Below are positions 33,130 to 45,680 of a stretch of 64,000 nt of DNA, one piece after another. The first letter of the stretch is position 1. Every line of letters starts with the position of its first letter. This stretch comes from Vicinamibacterales bacterium (GTDB lineage Bacteria > Acidobacteriota > Vicinamibacteria > Vicinamibacterales > Fen-181): assembly GCA_036504215.1 (NCBI GenBank), contig DASXVO010000028.1:1-64000 (forward strand), given 5' to 3'. The translations under genes were made by a program, and so were the position numbers. The notes below the pieces were generated by a model that did not search any database, had not been told where the DNA came from, and saw nothing but the letters and a program-made list of their open reading frames with translations.

Positions 33130-33340
33130 CCAGAAACAACGTGGGCAGCGAAGCGAGTTCGGCGGTTTGAGGCGAAGCGTCGCTAGACATCTTCCAGGGG
33201 TCAGAGCGTGACGAATGAAGCACGTTCTCGCGCCGCGCTTCCGCCCCTGGAAGATGTCGATGACGACGCCGGAGGCGTCGTCCAGAAACAACGTGGGCTA
33301 GCGAAGCGAGTTCGGCGGTTTGAGGCGAAGCTTCGCTAGC
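33130..33340. repeat. Composite repeat: two 58-59-bp copies flanking inverted repeats
   Basis: Copy 1 (33130-33187) and copy 2 (33282-33340) start CCAGAAACAACGTGGGC and share the core AGCGAAGCGAGTTCGGCGG. They differ by one inserted base and one substitution in the core, and again at the outer edge. Copy 2 has perfect 10-bp ends (GCTAGCGAAG 33297-33306, CTTCGCTAGC 33331-33340). Between the copies are a perfect 14-bp inverted repeat (ACATCTTCCAGGGG 33187-33200 / 33244-33257) and a 9-bp hairpin (GACGACGCC / GGCGTCGTC, 33262-33282). Copy 2 supplies the stop of the neighbouring pseudopilin. It looks like a REP-type or MITE-like element; the rest of the 270-base spacer holds nothing else I recognise. 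Confidence 0.8.
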
Positions 33341-34109
33341 CGCCCGGCTTCCGTGGACGAGGTGGTGGCTGGGGAGCGTCACCGGAACCGCCCCGCGGAC
33401 CGCTGCCCGGTCCAGAGAGACCGCCGCCGATCCCGATGCCCGGTTGAAAGCCCCCGCCCGGCGGCACGCCCTGGCCGGGCTGGCCCCGCGGACCACCGGG
33501 GCGGATCTGTCCAGGGCCAAAGCGGTTTGGCGTGTAGGTGAAGTCCCACTCGTTGTAGTGGGTATGCCCGTTGTACGTGCGGATGGAGGCCTCTGTGCTG
33601 GTGCTCGCCACGCCGACGATGCCACCGCGCGGACCAACGCCTGGGCGTCCCTGATCCCTCGACTGGGCATCGAACGACGTCGTCGGCTGGCGTCCCGCGT
33701 CTCCCGACTGTCCGCCTCCCAGCGCTCCACGCTGACCGCCAGGCTGGGTTCCCTGACCGCCGCCGGGCCTGGCCTGCTGGGATCCGGGCGGCGGTTCGCC
33801 GAACCGCACGAATCGGAACTCGCCGGTCTCGACCATGGGATCGCCGTATTTCTTGCGGAGGAACTTCTGCTTGAGCAGCGTGTCGACGTCGGGCGGATAG
33901 GCGCCGGCGTACTTCCGCTGGTACAGGGCAATCGAGCGCTTGTATTGCTCGCCGCGGAAGACCAGTTCGGCCTCCTTCTCGCGGCGCACCAACTGGCGCC
34001 AGGTCGGCATCGCCACGGTCATCGCGACGGCCATGATCGCCAGCATGACGAGCAGTGCGGCCATTGCGTAGCCGCGCTCGCCGATCCGCGCTTGACCCGG
34101 TGTTTTCAT
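33336..34109 (-). CDS. Pseudopilin-like protein with a long Gly/Pro-rich C-terminus
   Basis: 257 residues. The N-terminus GERGYAMAALLVMLAIMAVAM resembles a prepilin leader cut after Gly with a hydrophobic helix, but the residue at +5 is Ala where major pilins have Glu. Next come REKEAELVFRGEQYKRSIAL and YPPDVDTLLKQKFLRKKYGDPM, typical of acidobacterial type II secretion pseudopilins. The second half is low complexity (Gly, Pro, Gln), interrupted by SIRTYNGHTHYNEWDFTYTP. It probably assembles with the secretion system encoded at 35602-44900, but is split off by an opposed gene. Start ATG at 34109; a longer upstream frame is not used. Confidence 0.75.
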   Translation of the reverse strand: MKTPGQARIGERGYAMAALLVMLAIMAVAMTVAMPTWRQLVRREKEAELVFRGEQYKRSIALYQRKYAGAYPPDVDTLLKQKFLRKKYGDPMVETGEFRFVRFGEPPPGSQQARPGGGQGTQPGGQRGALGGGQSGDAGRQPTTSFDAQSRDQGRPGVGPRGGIVGVASTSTEASIRTYNGHTHYNEWDFTYTPNRFGPGQIRPGGPRGQPGQGVPPGGGFQPGIGIGGGLSGPGSGPRGGSGDAPQPPPRPRKPGG

Positions 34110-34133: not shown

Positions 34134-35387
34134 ATGATACCAGACCTCAGTTCGACCGATTTCCGGGGCGTGGCGAGGCGAAAGGCCGCGCGCGGTCGCA
34201 TCGTCCCGGCCCTGGCTGTCTGCGGCCTCGCGCTCGTCGCCGCCTGCGAGAAGGTGCCGCTGTTCGCGCCGACCGGGACGACCATCACGCTGTACTCGAA
34301 CGCGCAGGTGGTGGCACTCAACGGCACCGCGCAGATATCGGCCAGCATCGTCGAGAGCGGCGGCAACCCGGTCCAGAACGGCACGCTCATCACATTCACG
34401 ACGTCGCTCGGAACCCTGAGTCCGGCCGAGGCACGGACGAACGACGGCAAGGCCACTGTCGCGTTGAACGCCGGGACCCAATCGGGCACGGCTGAGATCA
34501 ACGCATTCTCCGGTTCGAACTCGGCCAAGTCCACGGTCAAGATCCTGATTGGATCGGCGGCCGTCACCGCCGTCACCGCGACGGCGTCGCCGTCGAGCGT
34601 GCCCTCCACGGGAGGCACGTCGACGATCACGGCGACGGTCGTGGACACCAACAGCAATCCGTTGCCGGGCGTGCCGGTCACCTTCACGACGGACCTGGGA
34701 ACCGTGACGCCAGGCATCGCCACGACGAACTCGGGCGGCCAGGCCTCCTGCACCCTCTCGACGAGCCAGTCGTCCACGGTTACGGTCACCGCGGGATCGA
34801 AGGTGACGACGACGGTGAAGGTCGTCGCGATCGACGCGCCGACCGTCACGCTCACCGGCCCGGGCACAACACCCTCCGTCGGTCTCAGCACGACATTTAC
34901 GGTGAACGTCACGAAGGGGGCGAGTTCCGGGGCGCCAATCCGGAGCGCCACCATCGACTTCGGCGACAGCAGCGGTCTACTGAACTTGGGGGCCCTGACC
35001 GGATCCGCGTCGATTCCGCACATCTATCTGAAATCTGGAACGTTCACGGTTACCGCGACCGCTACCGACGCCAACTTCCTGTCGAACTCCGTGTCGATAC
35101 CGGTCAACGTCTTCCCCGCCGTGCCGTTCACGCTGACGGTGACGGCGCCGTCGGCAAGGGTCGGCACAGCCGTGACGATTTCCGCTACGCCCAGTGCGGG
35201 TGCGCCGGCCATCACGAGCTACAGATGGGACTTCGGCGATGGGACGTCCACGACCACGACTGTCGGTTCGGCTTCAAAGGTCTACTTCGTGGTGCCGGTT
35301 GGCAATCAGGTAGTCGTCAGCGTCACAGCTACGGGCTCAGACGGGCGCATTGGTGTAGGAAGCACCGTCGTGTTCATCACGCTGTAG
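34134..35387 (+). CDS. Lipoprotein with bacterial Ig-like and PKD domains
   Basis: 417 residues. A basic N-terminus and hydrophobic segment end in LALVAAC, so Cys38 is the likely lipidated residue. Two Big_1/invasin-type Ig domains follow (about 45-135 and 140-235), each with the pattern VTFTTDLGTVTPGIATTNSG. Two PKD-like domains follow (about 240-325 and 330-417), with ATIDFGDSS and YRWDFGDGTS. It is probably a surface or periplasmic adhesion or scaffold lipoprotein. It reads opposite to the secretion genes on both sides, so it may be a partner or substrate. Thr/Ser/Val-rich composition is normal for such proteins. Confidence 0.8.
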   Translation: MIPDLSSTDFRGVARRKAARGRIVPALAVCGLALVAACEKVPLFAPTGTTITLYSNAQVVALNGTAQISASIVESGGNPVQNGTLITFTTSLGTLSPAEARTNDGKATVALNAGTQSGTAEINAFSGSNSAKSTVKILIGSAAVTAVTATASPSSVPSTGGTSTITATVVDTNSNPLPGVPVTFTTDLGTVTPGIATTNSGGQASCTLSTSQSSTVTVTAGSKVTTTVKVVAIDAPTVTLTGPGTTPSVGLSTTFTVNVTKGASSGAPIRSATIDFGDSSGLLNLGALTGSASIPHIYLKSGTFTVTATATDANFLSNSVSIPVNVFPAVPFTLTVTAPSARVGTAVTISATPSAGAPAITSYRWDFGDGTSTTTTVGSASKVYFVVPVGNQVVVSVTATGSDGRIGVGSTVVFITL

Positions 35388-35556: not shown

Positions 35557-35612
35557 CATCACCACTCTCCGCATCACCACTCTCCGCATCACCACTCCGC
35601 ATCACCACTCCG
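35557..35612. repeat. Short tandem repeat CATCACCACTCTCCG
   Basis: Four head-to-tail units: two of 15 bases (35557-35571, 35572-35586) and two of 13 bases (35587-35599, 35600-35612). The last unit contains the stop codon of the - strand pseudopilin gene. Confidence 0.85.
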
Positions 35613-36021
35613 CGTAGGCGGTGCCCTCGAGCGACGTGCCCTCTGCCCCGCTCTTCACATCGAAGACGCCGGCTTCGGCCGTCGGATTGCCGGGGTCGGG
35701 TTCCGAGGGGATCGGCTGCCACGTGTCGGTGGACTCGGTCATCGGGTCCTTCGGGAGCTGCCGCATGTAGCCGTCCGACACGAGCGCGTCGAGGCTGGCG
35801 GGGTACTTTCCCTTGTCAGCATAGTACTGGTCGATGGCGTCGCGCATCCGGAAGAGGTCTTCCTTCAGCACGCCTTCCCTGGTGCGGAGGACGCCGTTGC
35901 GGTACTGCACGACGCCCATGCCGGCCAGCACCGCGACCAGCGCGACCACGACCATCAATTCGATCAGCGTGAATCCGGATTCAGCGCCAAGCCGACGCCG
36001 AAACCCTCGGAGTGTCAGCAT
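35602..36021 (-). CDS. gspG: Type II secretion major pseudopilin, GspG-like
   Basis: 139 residues. The prepilin signal is ideal: a basic leader, cleavage after Gly in ESGFTLIELMVVVALVAVLA, and Glu at +5. Downstream are LFRMRDAIDQYYADKGKYPASLDAL and DPMTESTDTW, as in GspG. Pseudopilins form the piston-like filament of the type II system. Last gene of the operon; its 3' end runs into a tandem repeat. Confidence 0.88.
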   Translation of the reverse strand: MLTLRGFRRRLGAESGFTLIELMVVVALVAVLAGMGVVQYRNGVLRTREGVLKEDLFRMRDAIDQYYADKGKYPASLDALVSDGYMRQLPKDPMTESTDTWQPIPSEPDPGNPTAEAGVFDVKSGAEGTSLEGTAYAEW

Positions 36022-36027
36022 GGTGAG

Positions 36028-36543
36028 CTACCAGTCCTTGTACTTCGTCCCATCGAGTGCCGTGCCGGCGCTCTTCGTGAAGACGTCGAAGACGTTCTGC
36101 CCGCCCCAACTCGTCGAGTCGGCATCGTCCTGATAGGACCGCATGCCCCACTCGGTGCTCTTGGTCATCGGATCGATCGGAATCCGCCGGAGGAACTTCA
36201 GCTTCCGGCCCGACGCGTCGTTGGCGACCTTGACGCCCTCGACGAGCGTGTCCAGGTCGGGCGGGTATCCCTCGGACCCCAGGCGGACGTCGGTCGAACC
36301 GATCATGCCCTGGTCCACGGCGTCCTTGTACTTGTCGATCGCCACGCGCATCTCGCGCAGCGTGCGGCGCAGTTCCGCTTCGCGCTGCCGCTGCATCGTC
36401 ACCTTCGCCAGCGGCAGGATCGCCGAGGCCAGGATGAGCAGCATCGTGCCAACGACGACGAGTTCGACGAACGTATACCCTGCGCTCGCATCACGGAGCT
36501 GCGCGAGGCGCCGAACGATCGATCGATGGCTTCTCGTGTCCAT
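36028..36543 (-). CDS. Second type II secretion pseudopilin
   Basis: 171 residues. The prepilin site is SAGYTFVELVVVGTMLL, with Glu at +5. The body resembles the gspG product: LREMRVAIDKYKDAVDQG, YPPDLDTLVEGV and RIPIDPMTKSTEWG, ending DGTKYKDW. It is probably a paralogue serving as a minor or alternative pseudopilin. It lies six bases from gspG and 13 from the secretin gene. Confidence 0.87.
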   Translation of the reverse strand: MDTRSHRSIVRRLAQLRDASAGYTFVELVVVGTMLLILASAILPLAKVTMQRQREAELRRTLREMRVAIDKYKDAVDQGMIGSTDVRLGSEGYPPDLDTLVEGVKVANDASGRKLKFLRRIPIDPMTKSTEWGMRSYQDDADSTSWGGQNVFDVFTKSAGTALDGTKYKDW

Positions 36544-36556
36544 TCCTCGGTTCGTC

Positions 36557-39154
36557 CTACTTCACCGTCACGGATGCCGGCGCGAACTGCAGGCTGATGA
36601 CCCCCGACGGCCCGTTCGCCACGCCGCTGATCCTGAAGTTCACCGCTCCCGGCGCGATCGCATCGAACACGACTGCCGCGAGCATTCCGTCACCCGTCGC
36701 GCCGACGATGTCGCCGGTGCGCGTGATCGTGATGTCAACACGCCCGTTGGCGGAGTCCACCTGCTGGGCGAACGCGGTCGTCGCGTTCCCCTGTTTCATG
36801 AACCCCCCTTCCTGTACCGTCCGCACGCGCAGCGCCGTCGGGCTGTAGGTGAGCGTGAGGCTGAGCGTGGACGCGCGATTCATCGCGGAGCCCGACAGCG
36901 CCACTGTGTAGGGGCCACCGCCCACGCGGAGCTCGGTGCCCGGCGGCGTGACGGTGATCACCGCCGGCGGCAGGGGCGCCGCCCGCGGTGGAGTCGCTGC
37001 CGCTGCCGGCGCGCCGGCGGGAGGCGGTGGGGCCGCTGGCTGGAGAATGGCCGGCGACGGCGCCGACACCTGGCCGGCTGGCTGCGCAGTCGGTAGTGGC
37101 GGCTGGACGGCCGGCATCGTCGGCGGCGCCACTGGCTGAGCCTGCGGCTGCTGTTGGGCCGGCGGCATCATCACCGTCCCAGGGACCGGTGAACTCCCCG
37201 GCGGAATGACCGGCGTTCCCTGCTGCGTCTGGCGGCCGACGGGTGCGCCACCCACCGGTGCGGCGCCAGGCGTCCCGTACGGCTGCGTCGTGATGGGAGG
37301 TGCCGGAGTCTGTGCCGGTGCTGCAGTGGGCTGCCCCGCGGGCTGATCCGTGGTCGTGTCGGTTCCGGCCACGCCGAGCAGCGGCGGTGTTCCGCCGAGC
37401 GTGGGGTTCTGTGACGTGCCGATGTAGACCGGCTGGAAGTCCCTGTCGGTCAGGCCGTGGGTCCGGATGATGTGCGGCGTCAGCAGCATCACGATATCGG
37501 TCTGCGAGATCTGGCTCTCGTTCGCCGAGAACAACTGCTTGATCACCGGCACGTGGATCCCGCCCGGGAACCCGTTCAGCGACTTCCGTTCGTCATCGCG
37601 CAGCAGGCCGGCCAGCATGTTCGATTCGCCGTCGCGCAGGCGCATCTTCGTGGTGACCTTGCGTGAGCCGAACGACGGCAGGTTCTGGCCCGCCACGTTC
37701 ACGTCGGCGGCCTTCGTGCTGCTCTCCACCATCAGGTCGAGGATGATATCGCCGTCGTACGTCACGCGGGGCGTGACCTCGAGGTTGACGCCGACCGACC
37801 GGTAGCTGAACGACGTCATCGGGTTGAACGCCGTGCCTCCGGTGACGAGCGGGCTGAATGTCGTGGACGGCACCGGGATCTCGTCGCCGAGGTTCGCGGT
37901 GAGCTTCGTGCCTTCCTGACCGCGCAGCGACGGCTTGGCGATCAGCTTGGTCTGGGAATCCGACTCGAGGAACTTGATGGTGGCCGACGGCACCTGCAGG
38001 TAGAAGTCCGCGGTGTTGATGCCGTGCACGACCGTGTTGAGGTTGAACGAACCGCCGGACGTCGTCGCCGTGGCGCCGGCTCCCGGCGTACTCCCGCTGC
38101 TCCCGCTCGGTGGCGCTTCGGGCGAGAAGTTCAGGCCGACGGCGTAATTCGACAGGTTCAGGCCGTACGACTTCGCCCGCGTGCGGTTCACCTCGAGGAT
38201 CTCGACATCCACCACCACCTCGGCGCGCGGCTTGTCGTTCATCTCGATCACACGCTCCGCGATGGCGACCATCGCCGAGCTTCCGCGCATCGTGACCGTG
38301 TTCGCGCCCTTGTTCACCGAGATCTGCGGCCGGCTGATCGAGACACCGCCCTGCGGCACGATGATTTGGGTGAGCAGGGTCTGCATCTCCGTGGCGTCCG
38401 CGCTCGACAGGTAGAAGGTACGGATGACCTGGTCCTCGTACTTCTGACGGTTCTGCGGTGAGTCCAGGATGACCAAAATCGTGCGGGCGTTCAGCACCTT
38501 GTAAAAGAAGCCGTTCGACGTGAAGACGAGGTTCAGGGCCTGCTCGAGCGTCACGCCATCGAGCTCCAGCGCGGAGGGGTTCGCCTTGTCCTGCACGGTT
38601 GTGTCGTACATGACGTTGATGCCGCTCGTCTGGGCCAGGAAGTCGAGGATCTGCTTGACCATGACCCCTTGCGCGAACTTGAAGTACAGGGGCTGCCGCG
38701 AGGCGGGATTGAGCTCCGGTACCTGGCTCGTCTGGCGTGCGCGATCCTTCAACTGCTCGATCTGCGGCTTGGGCCTGGCGGCCTCGATCTTGTCGCGGAG
38801 GATCTTCTCGAGCTCGACGGCGCGCGTCGTCGCCCGGCGGTTGCCCGGATCGAACTCCGCCGCCTTCCGGTACTCGCGAATCGCCCCCTCGATGTCGTCC
38901 TTTGCCTCGAGCTGCTGTCCCTTGTCGATGTGGTTGCGCGACGCGGCCAACTGCGCCCGTTCCAACGCAATCTTGTACTCGGCCGAGTTCGGATTCGCCT
39001 GGGTGGCCTGCTGGTAGTAGAGGACGGCCGAGTCCCAGTCGCCGGAGCGCGCCGCCCGTTCACCGTTGCTGAAGGCCCGCCCCGCCGTGCAGCCGGCAGC
39101 GGCGACCGCGATCATCAGGCCCAGCGCTGCTGCTTTCAGAAGTTCCGATCTCAA
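36557..39154 (-). CDS. gspD: Secretin (GspD/PilQ-like) lipoprotein with TPR and cohesin-like domains
   Basis: 865 residues from a TTG at 39154 preceded by GGAGG at five bases; a TTG four codons upstream is the alternative. Domains in order: lipoprotein signal with Cys22 (AVAAAGC); TPR repeats (about 28-115); an STN/N0-like domain (ILDFLAQTSGINVMYD); a NolW/N1 domain; the secretin core (about 370-575, with VGVNLEVTPRVTYDGDIILDL and DIVMLLTPHII); a Pro/Gln/Ala linker of about 130 residues; and a C-terminal cohesin-like beta domain (from LRVGGGPYTVALSGSAMN to the end). Secretins form the outer-membrane gate. The cohesin-like end is not part of classical GspD or PilQ. Confidence 0.9.
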   Translation of the reverse strand: MRSELLKAAALGLMIAVAAAGCTAGRAFSNGERAARSGDWDSAVLYYQQATQANPNSAEYKIALERAQLAASRNHIDKGQQLEAKDDIEGAIREYRKAAEFDPGNRRATTRAVELEKILRDKIEAARPKPQIEQLKDRARQTSQVPELNPASRQPLYFKFAQGVMVKQILDFLAQTSGINVMYDTTVQDKANPSALELDGVTLEQALNLVFTSNGFFYKVLNARTILVILDSPQNRQKYEDQVIRTFYLSSADATEMQTLLTQIIVPQGGVSISRPQISVNKGANTVTMRGSSAMVAIAERVIEMNDKPRAEVVVDVEILEVNRTRAKSYGLNLSNYAVGLNFSPEAPPSGSSGSTPGAGATATTSGGSFNLNTVVHGINTADFYLQVPSATIKFLESDSQTKLIAKPSLRGQEGTKLTANLGDEIPVPSTTFSPLVTGGTAFNPMTSFSYRSVGVNLEVTPRVTYDGDIILDLMVESSTKAADVNVAGQNLPSFGSRKVTTKMRLRDGESNMLAGLLRDDERKSLNGFPGGIHVPVIKQLFSANESQISQTDIVMLLTPHIIRTHGLTDRDFQPVYIGTSQNPTLGGTPPLLGVAGTDTTTDQPAGQPTAAPAQTPAPPITTQPYGTPGAAPVGGAPVGRQTQQGTPVIPPGSSPVPGTVMMPPAQQQPQAQPVAPPTMPAVQPPLPTAQPAGQVSAPSPAILQPAAPPPPAGAPAAAATPPRAAPLPPAVITVTPPGTELRVGGGPYTVALSGSAMNRASTLSLTLTYSPTALRVRTVQEGGFMKQGNATTAFAQQVDSANGRVDITITRTGDIVGATGDGMLAAVVFDAIAPGAVNFRISGVANGPSGVISLQFAPASVTVK

Positions 39155-39250: not shown

Positions 39251-39808
39251 TCAGCCCGTCAACCGGATAAACTGGGTCCCGCGGCCGTCCACGTACGACA
39301 TCTGGATCGACTCCACGCCAATCTTGATGATCTTGTACCGTCCCTCGATCACCTGTCCCTCGCGGCCATAGAACACGTCGCGGCCGTCGCTGAGCACGGC
39401 GATCGCGCCCCCTTGCCCCTGCACGACGCCGATGAACTTCAGCGGGATCGGCGGGGGCGGTGGCGGGGGCGGCGGCGGCGCGTTCGGGTCCAGCGGGGGT
39501 GGCGCCACGGGCGTCACGACTCGAGGCGGCATTGGCGGCGGTGCCTTCGGCTGTTCACGGAACAGGTTTCGGCCTCTCCCGGCCGGCTCTGGTCTCGCGG
39601 CCGTCAGTTCGGACAGCCGGACGTCGGGTACGGGTTCGATGCGCTCGCCCGCGGCGGCGCCTCGCGCGCTCGCGGCTCGCACGGCGTCCGTGGACTGTGG
39701 CGATGCGGGTGTCTTCCCGCCGCGCCACTGATACGCCACCACGGCTACGAGCGCGAGGGCCAGGCCGGCCAGCGCCACGAGCTGCCGCCTGGACTGGCTA
39801 GCCGGCAT
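39251..39808 (-). CDS. PilP/GspC-like inner-membrane protein
   Basis: 185 residues. One membrane helix (about 9-27) precedes a Pro-rich linker with ten consecutive prolines. A small beta domain (about 125-185) follows: PLKFIGVVQGQGGAIAVLSD and FYGREGQVIEGRYKIIKIG, similar to the HR domain of GspC and to PilP. This part would touch the secretin. It overlaps pilO by 11 bases. The run of prolines implies dependence on elongation factor P. Confidence 0.78.
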   Translation of the reverse strand: MPASQSRRQLVALAGLALALVAVVAYQWRGGKTPASPQSTDAVRAASARGAAAGERIEPVPDVRLSELTAARPEPAGRGRNLFREQPKAPPPMPPRVVTPVAPPPLDPNAPPPPPPPPPPIPLKFIGVVQGQGGAIAVLSDGRDVFYGREGQVIEGRYKIIKIGVESIQMSYVDGRGTQFIRLTG

Positions 39809-40367
39809 TGGCCACGACCCGATAATAGGTCACGAGTTGGAGGGTGAGGGCGAGCGAGCCGCTCGCTTCGTGCCCCTGGTCGATCGCCACCGATTCGATG
39901 GCCACGAACTCCGGCGCCGCCTCCAGGTTGTAGATGAACTGCCGGATGTCCTCGTAGTTCCCCTCGAGGAGAATCACGATGGTGAAGACGTCGAGGCTGC
40001 CACCGCGCACGTGCCCCGGCGTCGCGGTTCGCCGCTGGATGCGAAGATTGCTCTTGCGGGCCAGCTGCGCGAGATTCAGATACGTCAACCGGTGGGCCGC
40101 GCTCAGGTCGCTCGGCAGGATGTCGCGGTAGAACGTCTGGAGTTCGGCCTCCGCCCGTTCCTTCCCCGCGGCAATGCCGCGTGCGGCCTGGTACTCACGC
40201 TGCGCCGCGCGGCGCGTCTCCTCCGCCCTGAACGCGCGGGCATCGGCATCGCCGACGCGGACGGACAGCGGGTAGACCACGGCCGCGTAGACGCCCACGT
40301 TGATCGCGAGCACGATCCCCAGGATCAGGACGAACGTTCGCTGTTCGGTCAGGATGCGGCGCAGCAC
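39798..40367 (-). CDS. pilO: PilO-like assembly protein
   Basis: 189 residues from a GTG at 40367. One N-terminal helix (about 12-33) is followed by a coiled coil and a ferredoxin-like domain: DILPSDLSAAHRLTYLNLAQ and LEGNYEDIRQFIYNLEAAPEFV, a PilO signature. It pairs with PilN to link the cytoplasmic platform to the periplasmic collar. Position after pilN supports the call. Confidence 0.82.
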   Translation of the reverse strand: MLRRILTEQRTFVLILGIVLAINVGVYAAVVYPLSVRVGDADARAFRAEETRRAAQREYQAARGIAAGKERAEAELQTFYRDILPSDLSAAHRLTYLNLAQLARKSNLRIQRRTATPGHVRGGSLDVFTIVILLEGNYEDIRQFIYNLEAAPEFVAIESVAIDQGHEASGSLALTLQLVTYYRVVANAG

Positions 40368-40383
40368 GGTGTCATCCTCATTG

Positions 40384-40986
40384 TCACTTCTTCGGCTTGC
40401 TTCCGGAGCCGGCGGCAGTCGAAAGCTGGCGCGTCACGGGCATGTACCGGCCTTCGAGCGCCACCTCGAGCAGTCCCTGCGGGGTCGTCGTCTCGGTGCG
40501 CGAGAACAGCCCGAGGAACGTGCCCGAACCCTGGAGTGCCTCGACGAACGTCTCCACGTCCTCTGCCCTGCGCGCGAGGACGACGACCGCCACCGTGAGA
40601 TGGCCGTCCCGGTCGGTCGATGGCCGGATCGATTCAATCCGCACGTCAGCCGGAAGCGTGGTTTCGAGGCGGTTCAGTAGTTCGGTCCAGGAGAACGTGC
40701 GCTGGTCGATGAGCGCATTCGCTTCCCGCGCGGCCGTGCCGACCGCTTCGAGTTCCTTCCGATCGATGCTCCGGCGTGCCTGCGCCGCCTGTTCGCGCAG
40801 CTGCACCGCGCGTTCCTCGGACTGTCGGACCCGTCCCACGAGGTCGGCGTGGCGCGCGGACAGGCTGCGCACCTCCACGACGTTGAAGATCGAGAGCGCC
40901 ACGATCAGGGCGCCGGTCGCGAGGAGTGCGACCCGGACGAGCCGCTCGTTGTAGAAAGGCCGCGTCGAGAGGTTGGTGCGCAGCAT
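40384..40986 (-). CDS. pilN: PilN-like assembly protein
   Basis: 200 residues. The start MLRTNLSTRPFYNERLVR resembles the PilM-binding N-terminal motif of PilN. A helix (about 20-41) and a coiled coil follow, then a ferredoxin-like domain (TFSWTELLNRLETTLPADV). It anchors PilM to the inner membrane. Confidence 0.85.
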   Translation of the reverse strand: MLRTNLSTRPFYNERLVRVALLATGALIVALSIFNVVEVRSLSARHADLVGRVRQSEERAVQLREQAAQARRSIDRKELEAVGTAAREANALIDQRTFSWTELLNRLETTLPADVRIESIRPSTDRDGHLTVAVVVLARRAEDVETFVEALQGSGTFLGLFSRTETTTPQGLLEVALEGRYMPVTRQLSTAAGSGSKPKK

Positions 40987-41001: not shown

Positions 41002-41973
41002 CTACACCCCGGCGCCGGCGCGCGCGAGCACGCCGACGAGCGGTGTCACGATGTTCAGCAGCGCGGGATCGGCGGCAATCCGGTCCGCGAACCTGGCACT
41101 GCGCTGAGGATCGACCGTCTCGGTCTTCACGTTCAGGCGCGTATCGATGAGCCGGCGGGTCGCTTCCAGTCCGGCCGTTGCACCAGACGCCCATCCGTCG
41201 GCACCGCTGCCGGTGACCAGCACCCGCGCGAAACCGCTGCCACCGAGGCGATCTTCGTAGTACATCGCGGTCTGGTGCACGAGGTCGGGCAGCGTGTCCT
41301 CGCTCCCTTCGGCACGGTTGCGGAAGAAGATCAAATCGGCGCCGCGCAGGATCGCAATCGAGCCGTACTCGGGCGTGACGTTGACCAGCAGCCAATCGCC
41401 CGAACTGCCGGCCTCCCCCGCCAGTACCGCGTTCACGACACTGAAGGTGGCCAGGTCCACCAGCCCCGCCTGCGCGCCGGCAACCTCGCACGCGTCCTCG
41501 TACGCCTTCACCACGTCGCGCCTGGCCAGCGCCACCACGAATTCCCGGCCTCCGCCGGGCACGGCGATGCCGGGCGAATAGGTGACCTGGGCCTCGTCGA
41601 TGTGGAACGGCGCGGTCTTCCGCACGTGCCAGCGAATCAGTTGGTCGAGATCCTCCTCCCGCGGCGGCACGGTCTCGAGGCGGATCAGCGACACCTTCGC
41701 GATGCTGTCCGGGAGGACGAGTGCCACCCGCCGGGTCCGGCCTCCGAGCCGCGACAGCACGCGTCCGACCGCCTCACCGAGCGCGGCGGCGTCGCTGACG
41801 TTCTGGCCTGTGAGCGCCGGCGTCACCACGCCGGCCTGCAGCGGCTCGATCGCGTGGCCCGAAATCACGGTGCCACCGGCGGGCCGCGTGACCGCGATCG
41901 CCGACACGACACGTGCGGCGATCTGGACGGCCACCGTCGGCGGCTGTGCGGCGAAGAGCGAGGTCAGAGTCAT
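41002..41973 (-). CDS. pilM: PilM-like actin-fold assembly protein
   Basis: 323 residues. It is an actin-like fold protein of the PilM/GspL-cytoplasmic type: VALVLPDSIAKVSLIRLETV, LIRWHVRKTAPFHID and WLLVNVTPEYGSIAILRG. PilM binds PilN at the cytoplasmic membrane face. It overlaps gspE by four bases (ATGA). The N-terminal nucleotide motif is less canonical than in Pseudomonas PilM. Confidence 0.85.
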   Translation of the reverse strand: MTLTSLFAAQPPTVAVQIAARVVSAIAVTRPAGGTVISGHAIEPLQAGVVTPALTGQNVSDAAALGEAVGRVLSRLGGRTRRVALVLPDSIAKVSLIRLETVPPREEDLDQLIRWHVRKTAPFHIDEAQVTYSPGIAVPGGGREFVVALARRDVVKAYEDACEVAGAQAGLVDLATFSVVNAVLAGEAGSSGDWLLVNVTPEYGSIAILRGADLIFFRNRAEGSEDTLPDLVHQTAMYYEDRLGGSGFARVLVTGSGADGWASGATAGLEATRRLIDTRLNVKTETVDPQRSARFADRIAADPALLNIVTPLVGVLARAGAGV

Positions 41974-43649
41974 TCGACGAAGGTCACCTTGTTGATCTCG
42001 CGGAGCGATGTCACGCCCTGCATCACGCGCTCCACGGCCGACTCGCGCAGGAACCGCATCCCCTCGTCGCGCGCCGCCTTCTTGACTTCCGTGTTGGGAC
42101 GCTTGGCAAGAATCATCTCCCGAATCCGGTCCGAGAGGTCAAGCAATTCGCAGATGGCCTGCCGCCCCTTGTAGCCGGTTCCCCCACACTCGATGCACCC
42201 CTTGCCCTCGTAGAAGACGTGCGTCTGCTCCATCGCCGGATCCAGGCCGGACTCCATGAGCAGCGAGGCGCCGATCTTCACCGGGCGCTTGCAGTGCGGG
42301 CAGATCGTCCGAACCAGCCGCTGCGCGAGCACGCAGTTGAGCGCCGAAATGAACTGGTACGCCTCGACGCCCATGTTGAGGAAGCGGCCCAGGACGTCGA
42401 GCACGTTGTTGGCGTGCACCGTGGTGAACACCAGGTGACCGGTCAACGCGGACTGGATCGCGATCTGTGCGGTCTCCGGGTCGCGGATCTCCCCGACCAT
42501 GATCTTGTCCGGGTCGTGGCGGAGAATCGACCGCAGGCCGCGCGCGAAGGTCAGCCCTTTCTTCTCGTTGATCGGGATCTGCGTGATTCCCTGGAGCTGA
42601 TACTCGACCGGGTCCTCGATCGTGATGATCTTGTCCTCGGGCGACTTGATTTCCGAGAGCGCGGCGTAGAGCGTCGTCGTCTTGCCGCTGCCGGTCGGAC
42701 CGGTGACCAGCACCATCCCGTACGGCTCGGCGATGTACTTCCGGAAGCGTCGCAGCTCGGCCTCGGGGAACCCCAGGATGTCGAGACGCAGCTCCGAGAA
42801 CTGCTCGCTGATCGACTCCTTGTCGAGGATGCGGATGACCGCGTCCTCGCCGTGGACGCTCGGCATGATCGACACGCGGAAGTCGATCGTCTTCCCCGGC
42901 ACGCGCAGCTTGAAGCGGCCGTCCTGCGGGACGCGTTTCTCGGCGATGTCGAGCTCCGCCATGACCTTGATGCGGGAGATGATTGCGCCGTGGAACTGCT
43001 TCGCGATCGGCCTCATCGCCGCCTGCAGGACGCCGTCGATCCGGTACTTCACGTACACCGCATCGTCCTGCGTCTCGATGTGGATGTCGCTCGCCCGGCG
43101 CTGGATCGCCGTGAAGATCGTCGAGTCCACCAGCCGGATGATCGGGCTGATGTCGCTCGTCAGTTTCTCGACCGTCAGGCTCTCGTCGCCGTTCTCCTCC
43201 TCCTTGAGGAGCGTGATCTCGAATCCCTCGGTGGCCTCTTCGAGCACGCGCTGCGAGCTCTCGCTCTTCTTGAGGATCGATTCGATCGCATACCTCGCGC
43301 CGACGGTCACCTTCAGCGGCGCGGCGAGCAGCAGCGCCAGCTCGTCGATCATCGGGAGGTCGGTCGGATCGGAGACCACGATGACGAGGGAGCGGCCGTC
43401 GCGGTGATGCGGCACGAAGCCGTAGCGCAGCATCAGATCGGCGGGAATCGATCGGAACAGGTCGTGATCGATCTGGAACTGTTCCAGGTCCACGAACTCC
43501 AGCCCGTAGCGCTCCGCGAGGCGGCGCGCCTGTGCCGCCTCCTCGGTGCGTTCCTCTCCAACCGGTGCAATGCCGTCCGCATAGAACGGGGCGGCCGTGG
43601 TCGTGGCCGCTCCCCGTGGCGATGCCGTGTTCGGAACCCGTGGATCCAC
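41970..43649 (-). CDS. gspE: GspE/PilB-type secretion ATPase
   Basis: 559 residues from a GTG at 43649 with a purine-rich site upstream. An N-terminal GspE domain (about 35-150) precedes the ATPase domain: Walker A GPTGSGKTTTLYAAL, Asp box ITIEDPVEYQLQGITQ, Walker B IMVGEIRDPETA and His box LTGHLVFTTVHAN. Two CxxC pairs (CPHC, CIEC) bind zinc, as in GspE and PilB. It powers pseudopilus assembly. No retraction ATPase PilT is encoded nearby, which favours secretion over twitching. Confidence 0.95.
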   Translation of the reverse strand: MDPRVPNTASPRGAATTTAAPFYADGIAPVGEERTEEAAQARRLAERYGLEFVDLEQFQIDHDLFRSIPADLMLRYGFVPHHRDGRSLVIVVSDPTDLPMIDELALLLAAPLKVTVGARYAIESILKKSESSQRVLEEATEGFEITLLKEEENGDESLTVEKLTSDISPIIRLVDSTIFTAIQRRASDIHIETQDDAVYVKYRIDGVLQAAMRPIAKQFHGAIISRIKVMAELDIAEKRVPQDGRFKLRVPGKTIDFRVSIMPSVHGEDAVIRILDKESISEQFSELRLDILGFPEAELRRFRKYIAEPYGMVLVTGPTGSGKTTTLYAALSEIKSPEDKIITIEDPVEYQLQGITQIPINEKKGLTFARGLRSILRHDPDKIMVGEIRDPETAQIAIQSALTGHLVFTTVHANNVLDVLGRFLNMGVEAYQFISALNCVLAQRLVRTICPHCKRPVKIGASLLMESGLDPAMEQTHVFYEGKGCIECGGTGYKGRQAICELLDLSDRIREMILAKRPNTEVKKAARDEGMRFLRESAVERVMQGVTSLREINKVTFVE

Positions 43650-43685: not shown

Positions 43686-44900
43686 CTATGCAGGCCCGAC
43701 AACCGACGACAACTGGAACAAGGGCATGTACAGCGCCAGCAGCAGACCTGCGATGACCAGCCCCATGACGACCAGCAAGACGGGCTCGACCAGCGTGACG
43801 AACCGTCCGAGGTCCGTCTCGATTTCCTCGTCGTAGAAGTCCGCCAGGCTGTTGAGCATCTCCTGAAGCGCGCCCGTCGCTTCCCCCACCTCGACCATCT
43901 TGATGGCGACATCCGGAAACACGTGTCGGGCCGCCATGGCGGCGGCGAACGGCTCGCCCTCGCGCACCCGGTGGCCCACCATCTCCAGCGCCGCCGCCAT
44001 CGATCGATTGCCGATGGAGCGGCTCGCAATCTCGATCGCGTTCACGAGCGGGATTCCGCCCCCGAGCAATGTGGCCAGCGTACGCGCCAGTTGAGACGTC
44101 GAGAACCTGCGCACGGTTGGACCAACTGCGGGCAGCCGCAACAGCAGCCGGTCGAACCGCTCGCGCTGTCCGGGACGGTGCAGCCAGGTATTGATGCCGA
44201 GCGCGAGGCCGGCCAGCACGATCAGGATCGGCAGCCACTGCGACCGGATGGCATCCGACAGCGCGACGATGGCCCGCGTGACCAGCGGCAGTTCGTGGCC
44301 GAACTGTCCGTAGAAGTCCGAGAAGGCGGGAACCACACGAATCACGATGATCCCCACGACCGCACACGCCAGCGCGAGCAACACCGTCGGGTAGATGAGG
44401 GCCGACAACGTTCGGCGGCGCACTGCCGAGAGCACCTTCACGTACGCCACATAGCGGCGCAGCACCGCTTCGAGGCTGCCGCTCTTCTCGCCGGCCAGCA
44501 ATGAGGCCGTGTACACGCCCGGGAACAGATCGCCACGCGCGGCAAACGCATCGGACAGGGCGGTGCCGGCACGCACCTCCTCGTGGACCTCGTCGAGCAC
44601 CCTCTTGAGCAGCGGCGAACTGGTCCGCTGGCGAAGGATGTCGAGCGACTGCACGAGCGGCATTCCGGCCTTCAGCAGGGTGGCCAGTTCCTGGTTGAAG
44701 ACCACGAACTCACGGGCCGGTATCGAACGCCGGGCCGGCAGCCGCGGGGACCATCCGCCGATGGCGTGGCGCGGCCGCAAGGCCAGCACGCACAGGCCCT
44801 TCTGCTCGAGGTCGCGGCGCAGCCGCTCCTCGCTATCGGCAGCGTAAATCCCCTCGGAGATCTCGCCGCCCGGAGACGAGAGCCTACAGCGGAATTCCAT
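43686..44900 (-). CDS. gspF: GspF/PilC-type inner-membrane platform protein
   Basis: 404 residues from the ATG at 44900, which matches the usual MEFRCR-type start; a TTG seven codons upstream is the alternative. Two T2SSF domains repeat: FVVFNQELATLLKAGMPLVQ with LLAGEKSGSLEAVLRRY, then FSTSQLARTLATLLGGGIPL with MVEVGEATGALQEMLNSLAD. Three membrane helices follow the standard layout. It is the platform to which GspE docks. It is the first gene of the operon. Confidence 0.94.
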   Translation of the reverse strand: MEFRCRLSSPGGEISEGIYAADSEERLRRDLEQKGLCVLALRPRHAIGGWSPRLPARRSIPAREFVVFNQELATLLKAGMPLVQSLDILRQRTSSPLLKRVLDEVHEEVRAGTALSDAFAARGDLFPGVYTASLLAGEKSGSLEAVLRRYVAYVKVLSAVRRRTLSALIYPTVLLALACAVVGIIVIRVVPAFSDFYGQFGHELPLVTRAIVALSDAIRSQWLPILIVLAGLALGINTWLHRPGQRERFDRLLLRLPAVGPTVRRFSTSQLARTLATLLGGGIPLVNAIEIASRSIGNRSMAAALEMVGHRVREGEPFAAAMAARHVFPDVAIKMVEVGEATGALQEMLNSLADFYDEEIETDLGRFVTLVEPVLLVVMGLVIAGLLLALYMPLFQLSSVVGPA

Positions 44901-44949
44901 CGCAAGCCATTGTGACGTCAATAATTGGCATGACGTTGGTAATGAGTTG

Positions 44950-45014: not shown

Positions 45015-45680
45015 CTAGCGCGCGGGGAGGCGACCGAGGAGGCCAAGCACCTGGCGCACGTAGTTTTGCGTTTCTGGATAGGGCGGGATGCCACGGAAGC
45101 GTTCGACGGCTGCCTCGCCGGCGTTGTACGCCGCCAGGGCCAGCGAAAGATCGAATCGTGCGAGCAGCGTCTTCAGATGCTTGGTGCCGGCCTCGATGTT
45201 CGCACCAGGATCGTACGGATTCTCCACGGCGTAGCGCTGCGCCGTATCCGGCATGAGTTGCATCAGGCCCATGGCCCCCTTCCGGGAACGCGCCCTGGGC
45301 TGATAGGCCGATTCCACCTGGATGACCGCCCGTACGAGTCTGGGATCAATCCCCTCGCGAGCGGCCGCTCTGTCGATGACCTCCGCGTAGGGTACTGGGA
45401 GCAACGCCTCCGTACCGAGCGCCGGCACCGTTGTCTCCGGCGCTGGATACGGCACTTCGTCGGGGGCAATCCGCTCAACCAGCGCGGACTCGCATGTGAT
45501 CTCCCCGCCCGTCCTGAGCGTCAGCACGATCGACGGACCATCAAGGCGATGCGAGCGGACAGACAGCGTCCGGCCGCTCGAGAGGAAGACCAGTTCGGCC
45601 GCGCACACGCCTCCGGTCGCCTGCCACGCCAGCAGGACGACGCCCGCCGTCCAGAGTGCTCGCCGGAGGGTCTGTCCCAT
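45015..45680 (-). CDS. Lytic transglycosylase (SLT domain)
   Basis: 221 residues with a signal peptide (about 1-28). The first 90 residues form a small beta-rich region. The SLT domain (about 95-215) has the catalytic glutamate in VIQVESAYQPRARS, then KGAMGLMQLMPDTAQRYAV and LALAAYNAGEAAVERFRGIP. It cleaves the MurNAc-GlcNAc bond to form 1,6-anhydro products. Such enzymes often sit beside envelope-spanning machines, and this one lies directly upstream of the secretion operon, so it may open the wall for it. Confidence 0.9.
   Translation of the reverse strand: MGQTLRRALWTAGVVLLAWQATGGVCAAELVFLSSGRTLSVRSHRLDGPSIVLTLRTGGEITCESALVERIAPDEVPYPAPETTVPALGTEALLPVPYAEVIDRAAAREGIDPRLVRAVIQVESAYQPRARSRKGAMGLMQLMPDTAQRYAVENPYDPGANIEAGTKHLKTLLARFDLSLALAAYNAGEAAVERFRGIPPYPETQNYVRQVLGLLGRLPAR

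Follow-up and report, generated by a model that had tools for sequence, protein, structure and literature searches.

A predicted TPR-secretin lipoprotein with a cohesin-type C-terminal domain in a conserved T2SS-like operon of Acidobacteriota

The window, i.e., the whole stretch of 64,000 nucleotides that was analyzed (positions 1 to 64,000 of contig DASXVO010000028.1, Vicinamibacterales bacterium, assembly GCA_036504215.1), carries a secretin gene on its minus strand at 36557-39154, stop codon included. The gene starts with a TTG codon at 39154, with GGAGG five bases upstream, and encodes a predicted lipoprotein of 865 amino acids. Its N-terminus carries the lipoprotein signal LMIAVAAAGC, a signal peptide with a lipobox, the cysteine of which (Cys22, 39089..39091) is invariant in 22 orthologues. 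The following TPR region, residues 31-111 (38822..39064), is matched by Pfam TPR_2 and TPR_14 and consists of helices with pLDDT of ~90 or more, which reach residue 126 in an AlphaFold model of the whole protein that was built with 22 orthologues. An N0/STN-like domain at residues ~156-230 was assigned by Pfam and AlphaFold (38468..38680 for residues ~159-229) and precedes the Secretin_N (N1) domain at residues 245-311 (38222..38422; Pfam E 1.2e-10), the fold of which spans residues 242-306 in the model. The secretin domain itself was found at residues 396-564 (37463..37969; PF00263, E 2.1e-31), with the secretin strands modelled at 418-564, and together with the N0/N1 domains it places the protein in the secretin superfamily. 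Beyond this core lies a linker of ~150 residues (~576-729, 36968..37429), which was assigned as disordered by pLDDT and composition; it contains 27% Pro and 18% Ala, residues 576-725 are modelled with pLDDT <50 and lack secondary structure, and in relatives its length is ~50-160 residues. The protein ends with a C-terminal domain at residues 730-865 (36560..36967) to which AF2, Pfam and Foldseek assign a cohesin fold.

The secretin gene belongs to an operon on the same strand. Upstream of it are encoded a PilP-like periplasmic protein (39251..39808), a PilO/GspM-type protein (39798..40367), a PilN-type protein (40384..40986) and a PilM-type protein (41002..41973), a GspE/PilB-type assembly ATPase (41970..43649), a GspF/PilC-type inner-membrane platform protein (43686..44921) and a putative lytic transglycosylase (45015..45680), which was named from its sequence and often heads the conserved cluster. 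The ATPase and the platform protein were assigned by Pfam and NCBIfam and the PilM-, PilN- and PilO-type proteins by Pfam; the PilP-like protein gave no Pfam or NCBIfam match and was assigned from its conserved place in the operon and from its C-terminal part, which is PilP/GspC-like by eye. Downstream of the secretin follow a pseudopilin (36028..36543), recognized by its conserved place and by an NCBIfam GspG match below the cut-off (E 1.3e-4), a GspG-like pseudopilin with N_methyl and GspG matches (35602..36021), and a third pseudopilin-like protein with a Gly/Pro-rich tail in a conserved place (33336..34109). Between the latter two, on the plus strand, a lipoprotein with Big_1/PKD domains is encoded (34134..35387), which by its Pfam matches, conserved lipobox region and neighbourhood is a candidate partner or substrate; its start from the lipid cysteine is conserved as C[DE]KVPLLAPTxSTITL. 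The gene order is near-constant, running from the putative lytic transglycosylase through GspF, GspE, PilM, PilN, PilO and PilP-like genes to the secretin and two pseudopilins, after which the Big_1/PKD lipoprotein, in either orientation, and the third pseudopilin-like gene follow, and this order recurs in most relatives' loci. With an assembly ATPase, a platform protein, pseudopilins and a secretin encoded together, the operon is that of a T2SS-like system of the type IV filament kind. Judged from sequence, the gene is predicted to encode the outer-membrane secretin of a conserved PilM/N/O/P-type T2SS-like machine of Acidobacteriota, for which protein secretion is predicted.

Neither GspD nor PilQ covers this protein. 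It shares with GspD (PulD, EpsD) the N0-N1-secretin core, and the system shares the GspE/GspF partner genes and GspG-like pseudopilins, whereas Pfam detected a single N1 domain, a folded S-domain is not predicted, and the TPR lipoprotein front and the cohesin tail are added. In T2SS secretins the C-terminal S-domain is the place where the pilotin binds. With PilQ it has the secretin core and the PilM/N/O/P-type partner genes in common, but differs by the TPR front end and the cohesin tail, and no AMIN domain was found in it by Pfam. The NCBIfam models for GspD (equivalog TIGR02517, 156.8 bits vs. a cut-off of 351.35) and PilQ (TIGR02515, 125.3 bits vs. 284.35) were both missed, which agrees with the proposal of an earlier note on this DNA that the protein is unlike either. 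T2SS secretins of the HxcQ-type are lipidated and self-piloted, and an own lipid anchor is also predicted here, while the TPR front end and the cohesin tail set the present protein apart from them. TPR lipoproteins are known to act as secretin pilotins: TadD, the fold of which is like that of PilF, binds the C-terminus of the secretin RcpA (PMC10499894). A lipidated N-terminal TPR segment is predicted in the present protein as in these TadD/PilF pilotins; however, TadD is a separate protein, whereas the TPR segment here has fewer repeats and is fused to the secretin. The lipidated TPR part probably serves, by analogy, as a pilotin built into the secretin.

The tail had been described in the earlier note as cohesin-like, and this was borne out by structure prediction, fold comparison and the Pfam score of the domain alone. 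The last 136 residues, modelled by AF2 with 25 orthologous domains, gave a pLDDT of 96.6 and a pTM of 0.89, and the best 50 PDB matches listed by Foldseek for this model were all cohesins (50/50), so that the predicted fold was not refuted. Foldseek placed the non-cellulosomal cohesin 2xdh from Archaeoglobus first (E 4e-10, TM 0.79), which was also the first PDB match of the tail profile; further matches include the CipA cohesin 1aoh (TM 0.84) and the Clostridium perfringens cohesin 2jh2 (E 2e-9). AF2 and Foldseek together identify the fold as the nine-stranded jelly-roll of cohesins. The Pfam Cohesin model (PF00963) scored 26.5 bits with the domain alone, above its cut-off of 24.1, and 22.7 bits, slightly under it, with the whole secretin; it matched 23 of the 25 orthologous domains when these were taken alone. 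As modelled, the secretin tail is a cohesin-type domain and not a chance resemblance. It has the fold in common with the non-cellulosomal cohesins 2xdh and 2jh2; unlike these, it is attached to a secretin, and no dockerin partner was found.

Loss of the domain in most relatives, which would have spoken against the earlier description, was not seen. Among 80 named loci, the titles of which are nearly all Acidobacteria or Vicinamibacteria, the tail is present in 68, six are cut at a contig end before it and six are without it. Across the phylum the domain is present in 158 of 297 genomes, mostly within frames of 700-1000 amino acids, and all 20 of the matches that were inspected, from many families, are C-termini of TPR-secretins. 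Most of the related genomes are metagenome assemblies. The 25 orthologous domains share a mean column identity of 64% and have invariant charged residues, while the linker varies freely; in a wide sampling of 25 domains, Arg812 (Arg83 of the domain) is kept in 21. A contig scan with the single secretin protein as query gave no matches, and a second one gave acidobacterial loci only, the chromosomes of other phyla, e.g., Geobacter and Myxococcus, being outside its scope. Four records titled Bifidobacterium breve, Acidimicrobiia or Cyanobacteria (L071, L091, L097, L139) contain the acidobacterial operon, and their titles look like misassigned metagenome bins.

TPR-secretin-cohesin proteins that score over the Pfam cut-off are furthermore encoded on plasmids of Eleftheria, Janthinobacterium and Paraburkholderia, in the same operon type. 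Two of these Burkholderiales relatives, WP_301260250.1 and WP_070257939.1, are named 'cohesin domain-containing protein' by PGAP/NCBI; they have the TPR-secretin-linker-cohesin layout and the operon type in common with the present protein, but are only ~27% identical to it and the neighbouring exported proteins differ. The homologous Burkholderiales plasmid operons (L196, L197) adjoin genes for very large proteins in which annotation or scoring indicates Ig-like or fn3 domains or FG-GAP/RHS repeats, and which are possible dedicated substrates. A plasmid of Aliiroseovarius encodes a shorter tail that is cohesin-domain-like by eye and fails the profile.

Secretins without the tail were found in two settings. 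In the genome that the window comes from, a lone TPR-secretin lipoprotein paralogue (L151 8795-10567, minus strand; G000:C35) has no cohesin tail and lies outside such an operon, which argues that the tail goes with the machine and not with TPR-secretins generally. This paralogue adjoins a gene that reads like LolA, and many related genomes encode a similar, shorter secretin. In a subclade represented by genomes G044 (L133) and G330 (L124), the secretin has no cohesin domain at its end; the GspF-GspE-PilM-PilN-PilO-pseudopilin cluster remains intact, but the PilP-secretin pair is located elsewhere, at a distance of ~550 kb in G044 (G044:C1:3734785-3743096 and 4289483; L192, L153) and likewise as a split locus in G330 (L193, L124). 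Neither the G044 nor the G330 genome was found to contain a free cohesin domain of this kind. Since this subclade keeps the machine without the tail, the tail is accessory, and the machine seems able to persist without it. In G330 (L124) the Ig/PKD lipoprotein adjoins PilP and the tail-less secretin and thus does not depend on the tail, which weakens its candidacy as an obligate tail partner.

Solved T2SS secretins have only their rim in the membrane, the rest being periplasmic (PMC6532946), for which reason the cohesin modules are expected in the periplasm around the ring. On this position, which is taken from homologous structures, rests the reading that we prefer, with a rough probability of 45%: the tails are docking modules on tethers, which together form a ring in the periplasm and catch a partner near the channel. 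The secretin C-terminus would emerge on the periplasmic side of the ring, and ~12-15 cohesin modules would hang on ~150-residue tethers around the channel mouth. They may act as protein-docking arms for a partner, either an exported protein or a lipoprotein of the envelope, and docking would raise its local concentration at the gate. The neighbouring Ig/PKD lipoprotein would be the first candidate for such a partner.

The tail domain could instead be structural and not a docking site. The main alternative of this kind, which we regard as rather unlikely, is an anchor or assembly aid with peptidoglycan, some other envelope glycan or a component of the outer membrane as its ligand; it would replace AMIN, S-domain or GspB-type contacts, without any choice of substrate. 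Consistent with it, the secretin lacks both a detectable AMIN domain and a predicted folded S-domain after its core, the operon often starts with the gene for a putative lytic transglycosylase, and the most conserved charged residues of the tail show no clustering on its dockerin-equivalent face. Attachment of secretins to the cell wall is, moreover, known from GspB/OutB (PMC9239104). Against such an anchor, the fold matches are protein-binding cohesins and not carbohydrate-binding modules, and one clade has lost the tail while retaining the remainder of the machine.

The earlier note pointed out that cohesins bind dockerins or glycans and suggested that the gate might hold enzymes or other lipoproteins at the outer membrane; its cohesin fold would allow the tail to act as a classical cohesin-dockerin scaffold for dockerin-bearing enzymes. 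This was not supported. In this genome Dockerin_1 (PF00404) gave no match over the cut-off, the best one reaching 14.9 bits, and dockerin-bearing partners as in cohesin-dockerin scaffolds were not found. The dockerin-equivalent face of the domain is not more conserved than the opposite one (0.655 vs. 0.756), and the most conserved charged residues do not gather on it; this comparison is rough, as the faces were assigned by strand alternation and cohesin topology rather than from coordinates. One dockerin-like double repeat was seen by eye in a protein of 3807 amino acids, where it lies between two weak cohesins of the protein itself and is without a clear second copy. Because no dockerin scored over the cut-off, the dockerin-like repeat stands alone and the face is not better conserved, enzyme-holding in its classical form is very unlikely, and surface display of enzymes is unlikely since all but the rim of known secretin structures is in the periplasm. 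That same topology argues against a tail which reaches the cell surface as an adhesin or display module, an idea that is suggested by the long flexible linker and that we consider quite improbable. Many other cohesins are extracellular, which favours such a location; against it, we know of no export route for the C-terminus of a secretin. A neutral, vertically inherited remnant without function, as the loss in a subclade might suggest, is hardly credible in view of the 64% mean column identity and the invariant charged residues next to a freely varying linker, and of the retention of the domain across the phylum and in Burkholderiales.

A wider form of the docking reading can be put forward tentatively and is itself doubtful: Acidobacteriota and Burkholderiales may have in common a distinct T2SS-like branch, in which a crown of 12-15 tethered cohesins at the gate selects and concentrates exported proteins of Ig-like or repeat type by a non-dockerin mode. 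The parts are known, and automated annotation already gives the cohesin name to relatives; no paper on a secretin with a cohesin tail was found in a literature search. Substrate recognition by type II secretion machines is a long-standing open question, and a conserved tethered docking module on the secretin would offer a concrete part for asking whether recognition occurs at the gate itself. The secretin tail also marks a machine type that is found across Acidobacteriota, a phylum in which few secretion systems have been studied.

The protein of 3807 amino acids (L152 5703-17123, minus strand; G000:C54) is of surface type, with SdrD_B/carboxypeptidase-regulatory repeats besides its two weak cohesins, and additionally has a C-terminal three-repeat 'TELR' tail. 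In the same genome, a tail of this repeat, xVKAxHxTELRxxLxxxR, ends seven large proteins and occurs near the end of an eighth (L163-L170). The 'TELR' tail was considered as a partner of the cohesin domain and rejected, because among the 11 genomes (of 297) that have it most lack a cohesin-secretin. It looks like a tail for sorting or anchoring, as yet unnamed, and is sporadic in the phylum.
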